Positions 18,855-59,957 of a stretch of 64,000 bases of DNA are shown here, piece after piece. Each line of letters begins with the position of its first letter. Positions within the stretch are counted from its first letter, which is position 1. The DNA comes from Roseicella frigidaeris. GTDB taxonomy: Bacteria > Pseudomonadota > Alphaproteobacteria > Acetobacterales > Acetobacteraceae. A model generated the notes under the pieces. The model worked only from the letters and a program-made list of their open reading frames with translations. It was not told the origin of the DNA and did not search any database. The stretch lies in the NCBI RefSeq assembly GCF_003258945.1, contig NZ_QLIX01000002.1, positions 496,843-560,842 of the forward strand, in the 5' to 3' direction. Both the position numbers and the translations under genes were made by a program.

Positions 18855-19676
18855 TCAGGCAGCCCTCCCTCCGAACAGGCGCCGCAGCAGGCCGGGCTTC
18901 TTCTCAGGCTCCAGGAAGCGATGCGGCAGCTCCTGGCCGAGGAAGCGGCTCACGGCGTCCTTGTAGGCCTGGCCGGCGATGCTCTCGCCGTCGAGGATCA
19001 CCGGCATGCCGGTATTCGAGGCGCGCAGGACGCTTTCGTTCTCCGGGATCACGCCGAGCAGCGGGATGGCCAGGATCTCCCGCACATCCTCGAGCTTCAG
19101 CATCTCGCCCCGCTCGACGCGGTTGGGATCGTAGCGGGTGACGAGCAGATGCTCCTTCACCTTGTCACGCTTCTCCTCCGCCCGCTTGGACTTCGATTGC
19201 AGCACGCCGAGGATGCGGTCGCTGTCGCGGACCGAGGAGACCTCGGGGTTGGTGACGACGATCGCGTGGTCGGCGAAGTAGAGCGCAAGCAGCGCCCCCT
19301 TCTCGATGCCCGCCGGGCTGTCGCAGAGGATGAAGTCGTTGTCCTTGGAGAGCTCCTCGATGATCTCGTTGACGCCCTCCTTGGTCAGCGCATCTTTGTC
19401 GCGGGTCTGCGAGGCCGGGAGGATGCTGAGGTTCTCGATCCGCTTGTCGCGGATCAGCGCCTGGTTCAGCCGCGCCTCGCCCTGGATGACGTTGACGATG
19501 TCGAAGACGACGCGCCGCTCGACGCCCATGATGAGATCGAGGTTGCGCAGCCCGACATCGAAGTCGATCACCACCGTCTTCTTGCCGGCCTGGGCCAAAC
19601 CCGTCGCGAAGGCGGCGCTGGTCGTGGTCTTGCCCACGCCCCCCTTCCCCGACGTCACGACGATCACCTGCGCCAT
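18855..19676 (-). CDS. minD: Septum site-determining ATPase MinD
   Basis: Membrane-associated ParA-family ATPase that recruits MinC and oscillates under MinE control. The 273 aa include the deviant Walker A TSGKGGVGKTTTSAA (8-22), switch I/II segments VIDFDVGLRNLDLIMG and DFILCDSPAGIE, and the basic amphipathic C-terminal tail KKPGLLRRLFGGR for membrane binding. An AAGGGGGTG precedes the ATG. Its 5' region on this strand contains an 8-bp hairpin (19707-19735) and the repeat-filled gap that separates it from minC. Confidence 0.97.
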   Translation of the reverse strand: MAQVIVVTSGKGGVGKTTTSAAFATGLAQAGKKTVVIDFDVGLRNLDLIMGVERRVVFDIVNVIQGEARLNQALIRDKRIENLSILPASQTRDKDALTKEGVNEIIEELSKDNDFILCDSPAGIEKGALLALYFADHAIVVTNPEVSSVRDSDRILGVLQSKSKRAEEKRDKVKEHLLVTRYDPNRVERGEMLKLEDVREILAIPLLGVIPENESVLRASNTGMPVILDGESIAGQAYKDAVSRFLGQELPHRFLEPEKKPGLLRRLFGGRAA

Positions 19677-19755: not shown

Positions 19756-19899
19756 GACCATGCGGCATGGCGACGCCCCAGGCCATTGCTAGCCGAGCCG
19801 ACCGGCACCCCCGGCACTTCCGCCCGGCGGCGGTCGGCCCCGAATTGTGGCCGCGCCGATCATGCGGCGCGAAAACACTCCAAGCCATTGATGGGCGAG
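19756..19899. repeat. Diverged direct repeat in the minC-minD gap
   Basis: 42-bp blocks at 19756-19797 and 19858-19899 match at 30 of 42 positions when shifted by 102 bp. Both begin GA(C/T)CATGCGG and share GCCATTG. They lie upstream of the two-hairpin repeat and suggest an old duplication inside a repeat-accumulating gap. No function is evident. Confidence 0.55.
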
Positions 19900-19938: not shown

Positions 19939-20045
19939 CTAGAGCATTTTCCGTTCACTCCGGTTCACGGCAAATGCTCTAGCCATTTGTTTTCAGAGCA
20001 TCGTCACCCGTTCGAGTGTTCCCACTCGAACGGGATCTGCTCTAG
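19939..20045 (+). repeat. Two-hairpin CTAG-bounded repeat (type A, copy 1)
   Basis: The first hairpin has arms CTAGAGCATTT (19939-19949) and AAATGCTCTAG (19972-19982), a perfect 11-bp pair. The second has AGAGCA (19995-20000) and TGCTCT (20038-20043) enclosing a perfect 12-bp stem CCCGTTCGAGTG/CACTCGAACGGG (20007-20034) with a 4-base loop. The two are joined by TTTGTTTTC. The element lies at the 3' end of minC, whose TAG stop is read from its terminal CTAG. A second, inverted copy is at 58648-58752. It resembles paired REP/BIME-type elements in design. Confidence 0.9.
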
Positions 20046-20839
20046 CCCAGCGGCCCGAAGCGCATCTCCTCGCCTTCCAGCCGGACCTGCGCCGGCCGGC
20101 CGATCGGCGCATCGCCGAGTCCCTCGCGGACGACGTAATAGCCCGCGATGGCAACGAGCTCGGGATCGAAATGCAGCGCGAAGATCCGCGCCTCGGAATC
20201 GTTCTGTGCCCCGGCGATGGCACGGCCGCGCAAGGCACCATAGACATGCACGTTGCCATCGGCGATCACCTCGCCGCCGGGATTGACCGTCGCCATGACG
20301 ATCAGGTCGGCGCCCTCGGCATAGATCCGCTGGCCGGACCGGACCGGCTCCGTCACCAGCAGGGCGTTGCGGCCGCTGCCGCGGAACTGGGTGCTGGGCG
20401 GTGCCGCGGCGGCCGGCGCCACGGGTGGGGCGGCGGCAGCGGCCTGCGGCGGCGGCATGGCGCTCGCCGCCTCGGCCTCCGCCTCCTTGCCGCCGGCGGC
20501 GCGCAGCGGCGGCAGGCCGGCGGCCGTCGCCGCCTGGCGCATCTGCGGCGTGCCGCCGATGGTGCCGATCGGGACGATCTCGAGCGCATGCAGCCCCTCG
20601 ACGAGGCCGCGGAAATCCACCTCCTCCGGCGCCGCCAGCAGATCCTGCAGGCCGATGACGATGGGGGCGAAGCGCAGGAAGCCGGGCGCCTTGCGGAACT
20701 GGTCGCCGAGCGCCGGCAGCACCGCATCCGGCCGCGGATCGAGCAGGCGCAACACCAGCAAGTTGAAATTGCCGGCGCGGAGTCTGAATGTCTCCGGAAG
20801 GATCGGGCTGCTCAATGCGGTCTCGAATCGGCCTAGCAT
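20042..20839 (-). CDS. minC: Septum formation inhibitor MinC
   Basis: FtsZ-polymerisation inhibitor carried to the membrane by MinD. From ATG 20839 it is 265 aa. The N-terminal FtsZ-inhibiting domain is about 1-105 (FRLRAGNFNLLVLRLLDP), followed by an Ala/Pro-rich linker of about 50 residues. The C-terminal beta-helix domain has GQRIYAEGADLIVMATVNPG and ADGNVHVYGALRGRA, the MinD-contact surface. An earlier in-frame start (20911) would add unlikely residues. It precedes minD-minE on the same strand but is 365 bp away. The stop codon TAG lies inside the type A repeat. Confidence 0.95.
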   Translation of the reverse strand: MLGRFETALSSPILPETFRLRAGNFNLLVLRLLDPRPDAVLPALGDQFRKAPGFLRFAPIVIGLQDLLAAPEEVDFRGLVEGLHALEIVPIGTIGGTPQMRQAATAAGLPPLRAAGGKEAEAEAASAMPPPQAAAAAPPVAPAAAAPPSTQFRGSGRNALLVTEPVRSGQRIYAEGADLIVMATVNPGGEVIADGNVHVYGALRGRAIAGAQNDSEARIFALHFDPELVAIAGYYVVREGLGDAPIGRPAQVRLEGEEMRFGPLG

Positions 20840-21003
20840 GTTGGCCCGCAAGAGCGCGTGCCATGCGGCGTGCATAGCAGCGCCATCGCGGCGGGCGAAG
20901 CCCGAATGCAACGCTTTCGCCGCCTGGCGTGGCCCGCCGGCCGCAGACTCGCCGGCCGGGCCGAAGCCTGGATAATGGCGCCGACGCGACGGAGACGGCC
21001 GCC

Positions 21004-45987: not shown

Positions 45988-46064
45988 TGGCGCGCCCGGC
46001 AGGACTTGAACCTGCGACCCCACGCTTAGAAGGCGCGTGCTCTATCCAGCTGAGCTACGGGCGC
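45988..46064 (-). tRNA. tRNA-Arg (anticodon UCU)
   Basis: The 77-base reverse-strand sequence folds as a tRNA. The acceptor stem GCGCCCG pairs with CGGGCGC. The D arm is AGCTCAGCTGGATAGAGC. The anticodon loop CTTCTAA gives anticodon TCT. The T arm holds GGTTCAAGTCC. The discriminator is G, and CCA is encoded. It reads AGA codons, rare in this GC-rich genome. Confidence 0.96.
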
Positions 46065-46454: not shown

Positions 46455-46528
46455 TCGGGGCGGCGGGATTCGAACCCACGACCTCCTGTACCCAAAACAG
46501 GCGCGCTACCAGGCTGCGCCACACCCCG
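46455..46528 (-). tRNA. tRNA-Pro (anticodon UGG)
   Basis: The 74-base reverse-strand sequence folds as a tRNA. The acceptor stem CGGGGTG pairs with CGCCCCG (one G-T pair). The D arm includes GCGCAGCCTGGTAGCGC. The anticodon loop TTTGGGT gives anticodon TGG. The T arm has GGTTCGAATCC, and the discriminator is A. No CCA is encoded, so it must be added enzymatically. Confidence 0.95.
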
Positions 46529-50788: not shown

Positions 50789-51980
50789 TCAGGCCGCCGC
50801 GAGCGGCGCCGGCAGGTCGCGCAGCGCCGCCGCCGCCACGCGCTGCACCGCCGCCCGCACCACGCCCCGACGCGGCGCATCGCGGAGCGTGGTGAACCAA
50901 TGTTCCGGCGGGTCGCGCCCGGCCGCCCGGGCGAAGCTCAGCGCCCGCAGCACGCGCTCGGCCGCCGGCGTCACCCGGTCCGGGATCTCGACGCCGTTGA
51001 GCACCGCCCAGATCCCGGCCCAGCAGCGTCCGACGGACCAGGGGTTGTAGCCGCCGCCGCCCAGCACGACGAGGCGCGGCGCCACGCCCATCAGGGCCCG
51101 CACCACGCCCCAATGCGCGTTGTTGGAGAGGGCGAGCCGCGAGAGCCCGCACCACGCCCCAATGCGCGTTGTTGGAGAGGGCGAGCCGCGAGAGCGGGTC
51201 CTCCTCCAGCGCATCGGCGCCGCATTGCAGCATGATCGCCTGCGGCCGCAGATGCCGCGCGATCGGCAGGATCGCCTGGTGCAGCAGCCAGAGCATCTCG
51301 CTGTCGTTGAAGCCCGGCGGCACCGGCAGGTTGCGCGCATGGCCGCCGGCGCGATCCGTCGCCGCCCCGGTGAAGGGCCAGCGGCCGCCCTCATGGACGC
51401 TGAGGGTGAAGACGCGCGGGTCGTCGTGGAAGGCGTCCTGCACGCCGTCGCCGTGATGCGCGTCGATATCGACGTAGAGGATGGCGTCGAGCCCCTGGTC
51501 GAGCCAGGCGAGCAGGCCGAGCACCGGGTCGTTCAAATAGCAGAAGCCGCTGGCTCGGTCCGGCCGGCCATGATGCGTGCCGCCGCCCGGGCAGTGCACG
51601 ATGCCGCCCGCCGCGGTCAGCCGCGCCGCCAGCAGGCAGCCGCCGGCGCTGGTGGCGGGGCGGGAGAAGACCTCGCGGTAGACCGGGTTGCCATGCGCGC
51701 CGATATGGAAGCGGGCGCGGTCGGCGGCATCGGCCTGCTGCGTCGCCTCGGCGCGCTGCAGGGCGGCGATGTAGTCGGGGTGGTGGAAGCGGGCGAGCTC
51801 TGCCGGGCTCGCCATCGGCGCCGGCACCCAGCCCTCCGGCGGCAGCCAGCCCATGGCCTCGATGAGGTCGAGCGCCGTCGAGACCCGCGGGATGGCGAGC
51901 GGGTGCTTCGGGCCATAGGAGGAGCGACGGTAGATCTCGGAGCCGATCAGGACCGGGCGCAGGCGGGCATCGGGCGGCAT
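50789..51980 (-). pseudogene. Histone deacetylase / AcuC-like amidohydrolase, frameshifted by a 49-bp duplication
   Basis: Zn-dependent deacetylase of the HDAC/acetylpolyamine amidohydrolase group. Intact to about residue 280: HCPGGGTHHGRPDRASGFC (His136-His137), YVDIDAHHGDGVQDAF with metal ligands Asp173 and His175, and CGADALEEDPLS with Asp256. A perfect 49-bp tandem duplication then shifts the frame. The rest of the family sequence, including VVLGGGGYNPWSVGR with the catalytic Tyr, continues in another frame to 50789. Without 49 bp the gene reads 380 aa. As given, the product would run to 50709 with an unrelated tail. It is either a genuine recent disruption or an assembly error. Confidence 0.88.
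51096..51193. repeat. Perfect 49-bp tandem duplication inside the deacetylase gene
   Basis: 51096-51144 and 51145-51193 are identical, with identity running on two more bases. 49 is not a multiple of three, so the duplication shifts the reading frame. The unit begins GCCCGCACC and contains TTGTTGGAGAGGGCGAG. Confidence 0.97.
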
Positions 51981-55860: not shown

Positions 55861-56613
55861 TCAGCCGAGGGCGGCGGCGATCGCCAGGAAATCCGCGGCG
55901 ACGAGGCTGGCCCCGCCGACCAGCGCCCCGTCCACATGCGGCAGGGCAAGGATCGCCCTGGCATTCCCCGGCTTGACCGAGCCGCCATACAGGATGCGCA
56001 GCCCCTCCCCGGCCTTGCCGAAGCGGCCGGCGAGATGGGCGCGGATCGCCGCATGGATGGCCGCGATGTCGGGCTCGGTCGGCGTCCTGCCGGTGCCGAT
56101 CGCCCAGACGGGCTCATAGGCGACGACGCCGCCGGCCGCGGCGAAGCCCTCCGGCAGGCTGCCGGCGAGCTGGCCGGTCACCACCGTCTCCGCCTCGCCG
56201 GCCAGGCGCTGCGCCTCGCTCTCGCCGACGCAGACGATCGGCGTCAGGCCGGCGGCCAGCGCCGCCTCGGCCTTGGCCAGCACCATGGCGTCGCTCTCGC
56301 CATGGTCGGCGCGGCGCTCGGAATGGCCGAGGATGACGTAGCGGGCGCCGACATCCTTCAGCATCGGCGCGGCGACGTCGCCGGTATGGGCGCCCTTGGG
56401 CGCGGCATGGCAATCCTGCGCCCCGACGGCGAGGTCCGGCCCGGCCTTGCCGGCGACGAGGTGCAGATAGGGAAAGGGCGGGCAGACCAGCAACTCGGCG
56501 GCCGGCGCCCCCGCCGCCCCGGCCTGCACCGCCGCGGCCAGGGCAGCGGCCTCGGCGAGGGAGCCATGCATCTTCCAATTGCCGGCGATCAGCGGGCGCA
56601 CTCCGGGGGTCAT
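55861..56613 (-). CDS. tpiA: Triosephosphate isomerase
   Basis: Glycolytic enzyme interconverting dihydroxyacetone phosphate and glyceraldehyde 3-phosphate. The 250 aa show AGNWKMHGSL with Asn12 and Lys14, VILGHSERRADHGE (catalytic His), VVAYEPVWAIGTGRTPTE (catalytic Glu, loop 6), and ILYGGSVKPGNA with VGGASL for phosphate binding. GGAGGACGCC precedes the ATG. It is divergent from ppiD, a neighbourhood often seen in alphaproteobacteria. Confidence 0.97.
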   Translation of the reverse strand: MTPGVRPLIAGNWKMHGSLAEAAALAAAVQAGAAGAPAAELLVCPPFPYLHLVAGKAGPDLAVGAQDCHAAPKGAHTGDVAAPMLKDVGARYVILGHSERRADHGESDAMVLAKAEAALAAGLTPIVCVGESEAQRLAGEAETVVTGQLAGSLPEGFAAAGGVVAYEPVWAIGTGRTPTEPDIAAIHAAIRAHLAGRFGKAGEGLRILYGGSVKPGNARAILALPHVDGALVGGASLVAADFLAIAAALG

Positions 56614-56715
56614 GGCGTCCTCCATTGCATCCGCGACCCCTATCGGGCAGGCCCCGGTTTGGCAACCGGGCGCCTCCTCGGCTATGGCAGCCGCCCAACG
56701 CGCGCACGGAACCCG

Positions 56716-58611
56716 ATGCTCACCGCCCTCCGCCGCCTGGCCGGCACCTGGTTCGCCAAGGTCCTGTTCGTCCTGCTGATCCTCTCCTTCGCGATCTGGG
56801 GCATCGGCGACATGGCGCGCAACCTCTTCGCGCCCGATACCTCCCTCGCCCGCGTCGCCGGCCAGCCGGTCACCTTCGAGGAGGGGCAGGCGGCGATGCG
56901 GCGGGAGATGCAGCGCCTCTCGCGGCAGATGGGTGGCCAGTTCGAGAACGATCCGCGCATCCGCCGCGCCCTCGCCGAGCAGGCGGTGGACCAGATCGTG
57001 CTCGACCGGGTGCTGCGGGTCGAGACGGAGCGGCTGAAGCTGGCGGTGCCGGATGCCGCGGTGCGCGACTATGTCTTCGCCATCCCCGGCTTCCATGGCG
57101 CGGACGGGCAGTTCTCGCAGGCGCTGTTCCAGAGCTTCCTGCGCAACAACGACCTGAGCGAGGCGCGCTTCCTCGACCTGCTGCGCGCCGACCTGGCGCG
57201 GCAGCAGATCGCCATGGCGGTCCGCTCCGGCGCCGCCGCCCCGACGCTGCTGACCGACCGCCTGCTCCGCTGGCTGGACGAGCAGCGCGACGTCACGCTG
57301 GTGAGCCTGCCCATCGCCGCCGCGCCGGAGCCGCCGGCCCCGACCGAGGCGCAGCTGCAGCGCTTCCACGAGAACAACCCGGACCAGTTCTCCTCTCCCG
57401 AATACCGCGAGGCCACCGTCGCCGTGCTGACCGCCGCGCTGCTCTCGCAGGAGGTGACGGTCAGCGACGAGGATGTCGCCGCCGCCTACGAGGCGCGCCG
57501 CGGCCAGTTCGAGACGCCGGAGCGGCGGCGGCTGACGCAGGTGCTGGTGCCCGACGCGGCCAAGGCGCAGGAGATCGCCGCCGCCTGGACGGGCGGGGCG
57601 CCCTTCGATGCGATCGCCGCCCAGGCGAAGGCCGCCGGCGGCGAGGCGCTCGAGCTCGGCGAGGTCGACCGGGCCGGCCTGCCGGTGCCCGAGCTCGCCG
57701 AGGCGGCCTTCGCCGCTCCGGAGAGCGGGGTGACGGCGCCGGTGCAGAGCCCCTTCGGCTGGCACGTCTTCCGGGTGGAGGCGATCGAGGCCGGGCAGAG
57801 CCGGCCGCTCGCGGAGGTGCGCGAGCAGCTGCGGCGCGACCTGGCGCAGGAGAAGGCCGCCGATATCGCCTTCGAGCGCGCCAACAAGGTGGAGGATGCG
57901 CTGGCCGGCGGCGCCACGCTGCCCGAGGTGGCGAAGCAGTTCGGCCTCGGCCTCGCCACGGTGGAGACCGATGCCAATGGCCTCGGTCCGGACGGCAAGC
58001 CGGTGGCGCTGCCGGTGATCGAGGCCTCCCGCGCGCCCCTGCTGAAGGCGATCTTCCAGGCCGAGCGCGGCGCCGCGCCGCGGCTGCAGGAGACCGAGGC
58101 GGGGTTCGTCGCGATCGAGGTGCGGAAGATCGTCCCGCCGGCGCTGCGGCCCTTCGATGCGGTCGAGGCGGCGGTGCGCGCGGCCTGGACGCTCGATGCC
58201 CGCCGGCATGCCGAGGAGGAGCGCGCCGCCGCGCTGCTGCAGGCGACGAAGGAGGGCAAGAGCCTCGCCGAGGCGGCCGCCGCCGCCGGGCTCGGCTCGC
58301 GCGAGATCGGCGCCGTGCGGCGCGACCCGCAGCAGGAGGCGGCGGTGCCGCGGGAGCTGCTCGCGCCGCTCTTCGAGTTGAAGCTGCACGAGGCGACGAT
58401 GGTGCAGACCCGCGACGGCTTCGCGGTCGCGCAGGTGCAGGCGATCGCGCCGGGCGATCCGGCGGCGGACCAGGAGGGACTCGAGCGGCTGAAGGGCCAG
58501 CTCAACCAGGCGCTGGCGCAGGACATCGACGTCGCCCTGCTCGGCGCCCTGCGCGCCCGTTCCGATGTCCGCGTCAACCCGCGGATGCTGGATTCCCTGG
58601 CGCAACCCTGA
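56716..58611 (+). CDS. ppiD: Peptidyl-prolyl isomerase / periplasmic folding factor PpiD (SurA_N type)
   Basis: A membrane-anchored periplasmic chaperone/PPIase of 631 aa. One transmembrane helix near the N-terminus (KVLFVLLILSFAIWGIGDMA, about 15-34) leads into a SurA-N-like chaperone domain (LARVAGQPVTFEEGQAAMRR, LAEQAVDQIVLDRVL). A parvulin PPIC domain (about 265-370) has RLTQVLVPDAAKAQEIAAAW and SPFGWHVFRVEAIE. A second, degenerate helical region completes the family layout. Its stop codon forms the first bases of a perfect 9-bp hairpin. In related genomes ppiD is followed by trpE; here an unrelated gene intervenes. Confidence 0.93.
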   Translation: MLTALRRLAGTWFAKVLFVLLILSFAIWGIGDMARNLFAPDTSLARVAGQPVTFEEGQAAMRREMQRLSRQMGGQFENDPRIRRALAEQAVDQIVLDRVLRVETERLKLAVPDAAVRDYVFAIPGFHGADGQFSQALFQSFLRNNDLSEARFLDLLRADLARQQIAMAVRSGAAAPTLLTDRLLRWLDEQRDVTLVSLPIAAAPEPPAPTEAQLQRFHENNPDQFSSPEYREATVAVLTAALLSQEVTVSDEDVAAAYEARRGQFETPERRRLTQVLVPDAAKAQEIAAAWTGGAPFDAIAAQAKAAGGEALELGEVDRAGLPVPELAEAAFAAPESGVTAPVQSPFGWHVFRVEAIEAGQSRPLAEVREQLRRDLAQEKAADIAFERANKVEDALAGGATLPEVAKQFGLGLATVETDANGLGPDGKPVALPVIEASRAPLLKAIFQAERGAAPRLQETEAGFVAIEVRKIVPPALRPFDAVEAAVRAAWTLDARRHAEEERAAALLQATKEGKSLAEAAAAAGLGSREIGAVRRDPQQEAAVPRELLAPLFELKLHEATMVQTRDGFAVAQVQAIAPGDPAADQEGLERLKGQLNQALAQDIDVALLGALRARSDVRVNPRMLDSLAQP

Positions 58612-58629: not shown

Positions 58630-58647
58630 GGCCTTGGGGGGGCTGCC

Positions 58648-58752
58648 AGAGCGGATCCCGATCAGATGGACTCACCTGATCGGGTGAAGATGCTCTGAAA
58701 ACAATAGTCTAGGTTGCTTCCCGTGAACCGGTGTCCACGGGAGGCGCCCTAG
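58648..58752 (-). repeat. Two-hairpin CTAG-bounded repeat (type A, copy 2, inverted)
   Basis: This is the reverse-strand copy of the element at 19939-20045. AGAGC (58648-58652) and GCTCT (58692-58696) enclose a 12-bp stem CCCGATCAGATG/CACCTGATCGGG (57-68 and 73-84 of 58600) with a 4-base loop and one mismatch. The linker reads GAAAACA, the complement of TGTTTTC in copy 1. The second hairpin has CTAG at 58709 and 58749 and a TCCCGTG/CACGGGA stem. It follows the ppiD terminator, and its terminal CTAG gives the TAG stop of the binding-protein gene. Confidence 0.88.
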
Positions 58753-59957
58753 CTCACGCTGCCCTCCAGCAGCTCGCCGAAGCGGTCGTAGCTGCGGCCG
58801 TTGAAGCGCTGCAGCTGCATCTGCCGGATCGGCCGGTAGTTGGTTGGGCTGGAGTTCAGCCGGATGCCCGGCAGCAGCGTCGGCACCTCGACATCCTTGA
58901 GGCTTGCCGCCTGGCGCATAATGTTCTCGCGCGAGGCGTCCTCGCCGCATTGCCGCAGCACCTGCTCCATCGCCCGCGCCGCGCTGTAGCCATAGACCGA
59001 GTTGGCATCGGTGAGGTCGGCATCCGGCAGGTAGCGGGCCATGAAGGCGCGCCATTCCAGCATGCCGGCATCCTTCGCCCAGGCCGGATCGGTCGGATCC
59101 TTCATATAGGCCGCGGTGGTCAGGCCGACCGCCTTCTCCATCCCGGCCGGCTGGATCACCACGCCGACGGAGTTGGCGCCGTAATGCACGCAGGTGGTCG
59201 GCTTCCAGCCGATCTCGTGCAGCTTGCGAATGGCCATGGAGGCGAATTTCGCGGTGACCGCCAGGACCAGGCCCTGCGCCCCGCTCTGCTGCAGGGTCAG
59301 GATCTGCTGGTCGATGGTCGGGTCGGTGCTCTCGTAGCTCAGCACCTTCGTCGCTTCCTCGAACCGCGCCCCCAGCACGTCGCGCACGCCATGGACGTAG
59401 TCGCGGCCGAAATCGTCGTTCTGGTGCAGGATGGCGATCCGCCCGCCGGGATGCGTGGCGAGGATGTGCTTGGCGTAGAGCTGCGCCTCGATCCGGTAGG
59501 AGGGCGGGAAGCCGATGGTCCAGGGGAACTCCTTGTAGTTGCTCCACTTGTCGGCGCCGGTCGAGGGAAACAGGTTCGGCACCTTGCGCTGGTTGGTGTA
59601 GCGCAGGATGGCGCTGTTGGTCGGCGTGCCGAGGTTGCTGAACAGGCAGGCCACCTGGTCCTGCTCGACCAGCCGCCGCACCTGCTCGACCGTCTTCGGC
59701 GGGCTGTAGGCGTCGTCATAGGTGAAGAAGCGGATCTTCCGGCCGGCGATGCCGCCATCGTCGTTCAGCTTGCGGAAATAGGCCTCCATGGTCTTGCCCT
59801 GGATGCCGAGGCTCGAGACCGGGCCGCTATAGGACATGGTGTTGCCGATGCGGATCTCGGTGGCGGTGACGCCGGGCGAGGCCTGCGCGGCGGCGAGGCG
59901 CGGGGCGGCGAGCACGGCCGTGGCCGCGCCCCCGAGGAGCGTGCGACGGGTGGTCAT
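58749..59957 (-). CDS. Branched-chain amino-acid-type ABC substrate-binding protein (Leu/Ile/Val-binding family), orphan
   Basis: A 402-residue periplasmic binding protein of the LivJ/LivK fold. Signal peptide MTTRRTLLGGAATAVLAAPR (Tat-like TRR) with cleavage after AQA; the mature start is SPGVTATEIRIGNTMSYSGP. Family segments are GIQGKTMEAYFRKLNDDGGI, IRFFTYDDAYSPPKTVEQVR and IAILHQNDDFGRDYVHGVRD. No membrane or ATPase genes accompany it. AAAAGGGAG precedes the ATG. It sits between ppiD and trpE, with a repeat element on each side, suggesting insertion into a formerly contiguous block. Confidence 0.92.
   Translation of the reverse strand: MTTRRTLLGGAATAVLAAPRLAAAQASPGVTATEIRIGNTMSYSGPVSSLGIQGKTMEAYFRKLNDDGGIAGRKIRFFTYDDAYSPPKTVEQVRRLVEQDQVACLFSNLGTPTNSAILRYTNQRKVPNLFPSTGADKWSNYKEFPWTIGFPPSYRIEAQLYAKHILATHPGGRIAILHQNDDFGRDYVHGVRDVLGARFEEATKVLSYESTDPTIDQQILTLQQSGAQGLVLAVTAKFASMAIRKLHEIGWKPTTCVHYGANSVGVVIQPAGMEKAVGLTTAAYMKDPTDPAWAKDAGMLEWRAFMARYLPDADLTDANSVYGYSAARAMEQVLRQCGEDASRENIMRQAASLKDVEVPTLLPGIRLNSSPTNYRPIRQMQLQRFNGRSYDRFGELLEGSVS

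Follow-up and report, generated by a model that had tools for sequence, protein, structure and literature searches.

What kind of element is the CTAG-bounded double hairpin that sits between minC and minD in Roseicella frigidaeris, and how does it spread? In the window, which means here the whole stretch of 64,000 nucleotides that was analysed, it occurs twice in inverted orientation (copies 1 and 2, Table 1), and the two copies together form the longest inverted repeat in the window's repeat list. Both follow a common plan, namely a CTAG-ended hairpin (arm A), a linker that contains TTGTTTTC and then another hairpin (arm B), whose inner stem of 12 bp carries a 4-base loop and which is closed by AGAGC/GCTCT. 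An earlier note had described this plan for copy 1, where it can be read directly in the sequence and in the fold. The same plan and the 4-base loop claimed for copy 2 also stand, but its length is 107 bp and not 105, and the pairing said to be kept in both inner stems is kept overall, except that one of the 12 pairs of copy 2, where CCCGATCAGGTG lies opposite CATCTGATCGGG, is a G.T wobble or mismatch. The ends of copy 2 differ, being CTAG (58752-58749) on the arm A side and CTGG (58649-58646) on the arm B side, and the loop region of its arm B contains GAGTC (58673-58669), a GANTC site. Folding z-scores on the two strands are -9.4 and -9.5 for copy 1 and -7.3 and -6.6 for copy 2, and 0 of 200 shuffles fold equally well. 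Because the scores are so strongly negative and no shuffle does as well, a chance origin of the two folds is excluded.

Table 1. Features of the two element copies and of the adjoining genes (window coordinates; R1 is the covariance model of the double-hairpin element).
Feature	Position	Strand	Basis or remark
Copy 1, two-hairpin element, CTAG at either end	19939..20045	+	sequence, fold, R1 116.6 bits
Copy 1, proposed mobile body	19942-20042	+	duplicated TA at 19940-19941 and 20043-20044
Copy 1, arm A, 44-nt imperfect palindrome CTAGAGC...GCTCTAG	19939..19982	+	fold, covarying pairs
Copy 1, linker CCATTTGTTTTC	19983..19994	+	sequence; TTTGTTTT-type linker recurs in relatives and class-wide
Copy 1, arm B	19995..20045	+	inner 12-bp stem 20007-20018 / 20023-20034, 4-nt loop 20019-20022; fold, covarying pairs
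Copy 2, two-hairpin element	58646..58752	-	sequence, fold, R1 107.3 bits
Copy 2, arm A	58709..58752	-	fold
Copy 2, linker ACTATTGTTTTC	58697..58708	-	sequence
Copy 2, arm B	58646..58696	-	inner stem 58684-58673 / 58668-58657; fold, sequence
minC	20042..20911	-	ORF, MinC_C and MinC_N domains
MinD-type ATPase gene, downstream of minC	18855..19676	-	ORF; CbiA/AAA_31/ParA domains
402-aa ORF, by eye predicted ABC transporter substrate-binding protein	58749..59957	-	ORF; stop-codon test positive
891-aa ORF, reading towards copy 2 from the opposite flank	55936..58611	+	ORF list

Each copy touches a gene end. The TAG stop codon of minC (20044-20042) falls within the terminal CTAG of copy 1, and that of the 402-aa ORF (58751-58749) within the CTAG of copy 2; the counterpart of this ORF in the congener G003 has TGA at the codon where this genome has TAG. 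The gene on the other side of copy 1 is termed MinD-type from its predicted domains and its position beside minC. Further repeats were noticed in the window. Two tandem, hairpin-like units of ~53 bp (GATTCACGCCTCCGGGCGATACCGCCCTGCGGCGATCGGC), the second with a CTAG end, occupy positions 1745-1858 and resemble arm B of the copy type found in the congeners G002 and G004. An apparently older, decayed hairpin repeat lies in the minC-minD gap itself (19760-19870), and the related stretch of G003 gives a weak R1 match of 25.5 bits. A 49-bp tandem duplication of 98% identity (51093-51190), whose unit is not a multiple of three, would shift the frame if it lay within a gene. An Rfam scan of the window returned nothing at gathering score beyond two tRNAs, whose genes lie on the minus strand at 45991-46064 and 46455-46528.

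The two copies belong to a large family. BLAST of the 5.82-Mb genome with copy 1 gave 65 matches, and a profile run on the collected loci placed 53 distinct copies at 40 bits or more, of which 43 were full length; alignment A1 holds 41 of these, two having been omitted for a partial inverted arm B and a deletion. From this alignment RNAalifold predicted 25 pairs, 15 of them showing double changes. When a structure of 37 pairs was imposed on the 41 aligned copies, 90.2% of the cells paired, against 27-42% in slid controls. Double changes were seen in 19 of the 37 pairs, whereas the shuffles averaged 12.4, and none of 500 reached any of five measures, a significance that the shuffles overstate since the aligned rows are related copies. 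All 150 candidates scored with R1 in this genome matched, the weakest with an E value of 2e-6; as every scored candidate matched, this count is probably a lower bound, despite some overlap among the matches. The double-hairpin element is therefore a high-copy family with covarying stems, and the covariance model search bore out the earlier proposal of such a repeat family, seldom within genes, in this genome and its relatives.

Comparison with G003 bears on the mobility of the copies. The end of minC reads GGG-CTAG-CTG in G003 and GGG-CTAG-element-CTAG-GGC in this genome: copy 1 is absent from the congener, and the single CTAG in its place is the stop codon of minC. The element was not found either in the minC/minD alignment of six genera outside the genus (G019, G020, G025, G062, G063 and G074). 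When 75 copies of this genome (40 bits or more) were compared with 1.21 Mb of G003, both flanks were collinear for 13, and the same copy was present in G003 at none of these 13 sites. Four of them have a clear junction, which is a single CTAG at minC, C56:50539 and C56:156285 and four other bases at C14:39382, although empty sites alone cannot separate a duplicated TA from a duplicated CTAG. The G003 interval has no R1 match (E <= 0.01) at eight of the 13 sites, the place of copy 2 among them; at the other five (two of which are one interval) it holds a weak match of 25.5-42.1 bits, belonging to other subfamilies with the same plan, so that insertions recur in such gaps. The match in the G003 interval orthologous to C56:128278 ends in GGACC/GGTCC. 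In the reverse test, 15 G003 copies were compared with part of this genome, and none of them had both flanks collinear there.

The architecture of the copies points in the same direction. Among the 116 ends of the 58 full copies, 77 read CTAG, and some neighbouring copies have one CTAG in common (C1:416726- with 416829+, and C13:18945- with 19048+). Solo B arms occur at C3:63380, with CTAG at both ends, and at C15:83367, with CTAG at one, and the copy beside the insertion sequence L275 carries a B-like arm where arm A is expected; the arms thus behave as modules. The double-hairpin repeat is real, abundant and mobile, and its mobility by insertion at CTAG is strongly supported.

The target word itself is scarce. 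In 561 kb of contig 12, CTAG was counted 113 times where base composition predicts 1377, and 90 of the 113 lie outside elements. According to a 3-periodic Markov model, the terminal CTAG contains the stop codon of a gene in 24 of the 58 full copies. Counted by ends, 25 of 76 testable CTAG ends are stops, as against 1/76 and 0/76 in the shifted frames. The stop calls are taken from that model, which replaced a codon-usage test in which sense and antisense were indistinguishable and which called 0 of 48 copies (minC negative). The copies were gathered around the best matches and are not a random sample. The free CTAG sites of contig 12 coincide with a stop codon in 19 of 90 cases, which makes the enrichment at copies a moderate one (Fisher p 0.0098). 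After joining, the flanks read open in their best frame at 6 of 57 copies, whereas 31 of 90 free CTAG sites do so, a contrast that is expected when insertions within genes are lost. Either side of the element can face the gene, arm A doing so in 15 cases and arm B in 10. It is proposed that, with CTAG very rare and often placed on a TAG stop, many surviving insertions would lie exactly at gene ends and would keep the stop codon.

The family extends beyond this genome. At E <= 0.01, R1 matched 26 of 59 genomes, that is, all five of the genus (own genome included), 20 of 30 in the rest of the family (25 of 35 for the family overall) and one of 24 from other families of the class. The best copies of the relatives (28 copies) mostly read CTAGAGC...GCTCTAG, then a linker of the TTTGTTTT type and finally GCTCTAG, with stems that differ between genera. 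Many R1 matches of ~30-50 bits in G003 (loci L141 and L170-L229), regular in length near 106, point to further subfamilies. The exact pattern CTAGAGC-N20-40-GCTCTAG-NNN-TTTGTTTT, so strict that this genome has only 8 exact matches, was found in at least 120 stretches of named genomes. The 80 loci among the matches listed bear alphaproteobacterial names, except for five called Proteobacteria bacterium or bacterium; the names include Caulobacter, Rhizobium, Mesorhizobium, Bradyrhizobium, Brucella cytisi, Ochrobactrum, Sphingobium, Bosea, Xanthobacter, Hyphomicrobium and Acetobacteraceae. Enough flank was present in 77 of these 80 listed loci, and a CTAG-like second end, commonly CTAGAGCATTTTC, CTAGAGCGTTTTC or CTAGAGCAATTCC, was recognisable in 58 of the 77, most often at 106-107 bp. 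A phylum-wide draw gave matches in 5 of 398 genomes (own genome and four of the same class) with no match in the backwards control, and a class-wide draw in 4 of 289. The best match of a plasmid search was from Rhodovastum, in keeping with Acetobacteraceae as the family. Among its 22 records is one named Roseateles, which is not an alphaproteobacterium; this record, possibly misnamed, covers 59% of the query at 79% and as named counts against a strict limit to the class. Judged by these sequence matches, the same two-arm plan occurs across Alphaproteobacteria.

Repeats of similar design have been described in this class. CIR reportedly stands for Caulobacter CcrM-associated intergenic repeats, and the name is said to go back to Chen and Shapiro in 2003. 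In the sections available of a review, CIR are given as ~110 bp long, with two arms and a linker and GANTC at a terminal loop; they occur in Alphaproteobacteria, Caulobacter and Brucella among them. The review's table enters TA termini, no terminal inverted repeat and a question mark for target duplication, and its text holds that more information is needed on their mobility (PMC2229807). A 2024 review, in the portion available, mentions CIR only as strictly intergenic (PMC10969869). The element agrees with these accounts in its length, its two long linked arms, its TA termini, its intergenic location and its alphaproteobacterial hosts, and one Caulobacter locus shares its plan. GANTC stands at the terminal loop in 25 of 61 element copies (copy 2 has it, copy 1 does not), whereas 36 of the 61 do not have it there, and the outer ends of the element are alike (GAGCATTTTCCG / GAGCAGATCCCG), whereas CIR are marked in that table as being without terminal inverted repeats. 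By this published description the element fits CIR (PMC2229807); the earlier note had known no named family for it.

Two other groups resemble the element, again by description. RIME (Rhizobium-specific intergenic mosaic elements) are palindromic, intergenic and modular repeats of rhizobia, and loci of Rhizobium and Mesorhizobium have the two-arm plan of the element, including its ends and linker. RIME1 is comparable in size and in its two-palindrome plan. Bru-RS1 and Bru-RS2 are reported as palindromic repeats of 103 and 106 bp with a TA/YTAR target used by IS711 (PMC3163539, PMC2266754, PMC10800456, as far as the excerpts go), and thus share size, palindromes and TA target with the element, whose plan is present in Brucella cytisi and Ochrobactrum loci; they differ in that IS711, which lands in Bru-RS, is not the mover proposed for the element. 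RIME and Bru-RS1/2 are probable kin of the element.

As to what moves it, the element is probably a MITE, a miniature DNA transposon, of the two-arm type that has been described in Alphaproteobacteria as CIR, and is probably moved in trans by an IS630-family transposase. The proposed model would make it a non-autonomous MITE of ~101 bp plus a duplicated TA, built from two back-to-back palindromic arms and a TTTGTTTT-type linker. A DDE transposase of the IS630 family (Tc1/mariner-like), with its gene at another place in the genome, would recognise the outer ends of the element, GAGC-NN-TTTCC, excise it and then insert it into the TA of CTAG, and duplication of this TA on insertion would produce CTAG at both ends. 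The arms would presumably stay paired through end recognition or arm-to-arm correction.

A partner of the IS630 family is likely in view of the ends of the insertion sequences resident in the same genome, where there are five PF13358 (IS630-type DDE) matches. The element ends, CTA followed by GAGCATTTTCCG, resemble those of three of these ISs, for example CTA followed by GAGCGGTTTCC. L250 has GAGCGGTTTCC at both ends, each adjoining TA; L242 has GAGCCATTCCC and GAGCCGTTCCC, each adjoining TA; and L237 has GAGCGGTTTCC adjoining TA at one end and GAGCGTTTTCC, with one extra A, at the other. L232 carries GAGCATGCTGTGTTT at both ends without TA flanks, and end searches in the fifth locus, L246, gave no such ends. 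A scoring matrix was made from 78 element ends that carry CTAG, and with it the L250, L242 and L237 ends, six in all, rank in the top 0.02-0.1% of 14,095 TA-flanking 12-mers of the genome's own DNA. The likeness spans ~12 bases, the interior of the ISs being unrelated, and in other genomes the ends of five IS630 loci do not resemble those of the element (P 0.10-0.67). When TA flanks were required and no sequence was assumed, GAGC appeared at both ends in 10 of 31 IS630 loci, these being the full-flank loci from the genus and family; the search omitted loci shorter than 3000 bases, L237 included, and missed the GAGC pair of L234, the G003 twin of L237, because of an extra A at one end. It was used for the counts since a search without the TA rule was noisy and a GAGC-anchored one is biased by design. 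L250 itself lies at C-TA-G with the TA repeated on the far side, between two open stretches that together resemble, by eye, a single ABC-transporter permease. This placement agrees with the duplication of TA by IS630 and with the preference for TA in CTAG, the former stated in, and the latter given by a title cited in, the same paper (PMC2170065).

It could also be argued that the element is of this same mobile kind and that another transposase using TA/CTAG moves it, for example one of IS5 type (IS427/IS711-like). Three IS5-type ISs of this genome (L265, L270 and L275) do sit at TA/CTAG, and L275 is situated inside a copy's terminal CTAG; a like arrangement is described, in the excerpted account, for IS711 and Bru-RS1 of Brucella (PMC3163539). 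This copy is the only one found beside a transposase when 13 IS loci were searched with R1, and none of the 13 has full arms flanking the transposase. Copies are also present where no PF13358 match reaches E <= 1e-15, as in G015, G020, G027 and G034 with 14-53 R1 matches, and G018, G026 and G033 hold 3-6 PF13358 matches and no R1 match; the presence of the two therefore does not track, and a comparison by eye of IS630 number with copy number revealed no relation. However, the ends of four IS5-type ISs scored with the matrix above are not like those of the element (P 0.09-0.87), in contrast to the six IS630 ends of the same genome, and IS5-type ISs were rejected as movers because the four ends scored do not fit. 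Movement by a transposase other than IS630 is considered unlikely. In a separate observation, an IS5-type element with ends of TTA followed by GAGCCTGTTTGAG and an IS630 element lie side by side with a common CTA junction in L237:87-1949 (G000 contig 64).

The reading as an IS630-moved MITE has to be weighed also against a function for the host. Under this alternative the repeat would be a structured RNA or DNA retained at gene ends as a terminator, as 3' protection of mRNA or as a CcrM/GANTC site, and its spread would be secondary. The strong covariation and the gene-end location of the copies speak for it, and the earlier note had taken structure preserved over sequence as a sign of constraint. 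The covariation is real, but RNA need not be invoked to explain it and selection on structure is not required, as arm-to-arm correction, or recognition of paired ends by the transposase, would give the same covariation. Correction of one arm from the other is a known type of process. In the 61 copies there are 80 A.C cells and only 44 G.T cells, which gives no sign of favoured RNA wobble pairing on the given strand. The sites are moreover not common to congeners, and a gene may be faced by either arm. As for methylation, CIR are named for CcrM sites, and this genome has one CcrM-like gene (N6_N4_Mtase and RAMA domains), RAMA being present in 5 of 5 genomes of the genus. GANTC falls in the arm B loop in 25 of the 61 copies, in the arm A loop in one and elsewhere in none; this total of 26 is near the shuffled mean of 23, only the position stands out, and the copies are related. 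In the class-wide loci it occurs in arm A of 28 of 77 and in the arm B part of 13 of 58. GANTC was rejected as a functional signal because its enrichment is positional only, and a primary role for the host is held to be improbable.

The earlier suggestion was a palindrome of REP/BIME type, with a REP-associated tyrosine transposase (RAYT) as its mover. The element does have abundant intergenic palindromic copies, some as head-to-head pairs, but this reading is very improbable. The element has CTAG ends, whereas REPs are classified by GTAG/CGTC tags, it is several times longer (107 bp) than their 20-40 bp as given in the excerpted source (PMC3733652), and it resides in a genome (a draft, 98.5% complete) with no match to the Y1 transposase domain PF01797, which the same search found in one of five genomes of the genus and in the Caulobacter and E. 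coli controls.

A MITE moved by an IS630-family transposase has a functional parallel in another phylum. RUP of Streptococcus pneumoniae is given, in the parts available of two articles, as a high-copy element of 107 bp with a TA target and ends like those of IS630-Spn1, its proposed mover (PMC2229807, PMC3049150). The element resembles RUP in size, copy number, TA target and ends similar to a resident IS630, but the termini of RUP pair mutually, whereas the element has two separate arms and a linker, and no sequence kinship is claimed. Within the class, CIR, RIME and Bru-RS may form one clan of Tc1/mariner-like (IS630) MITEs that insert at CTAG and whose arms are back-to-back transposon ends, a tentative proposal for which the balance falls slightly short of even. 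No published link of CIR, RIME or Bru-RS to IS630 was found in the literature searched, part of it in excerpt, which is no proof of absence.

The kind of element is thus already known, and the new part is the candidate partner together with the target rule. If the class-wide clan is real, arms that are back-to-back transposon ends would explain the solo arms and the mosaics, and CTAG, which is among the rarest words and often a stop, would allow a high copy number with little damage. The stems would turn over fast and be genus-specific, while the ends and the TTTGTTTT linker would stay fixed. Repeats of the CIR/RIME kind are conspicuous in alphaproteobacterial genomes, and a candidate IS630 partner, a CTAG target and a reason for the tolerance at gene ends make this descriptive puzzle open to a simple test at the bench. 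They also carry a warning, namely that covarying hairpins at gene ends in Alphaproteobacteria can be transposon ends and not regulatory RNAs.
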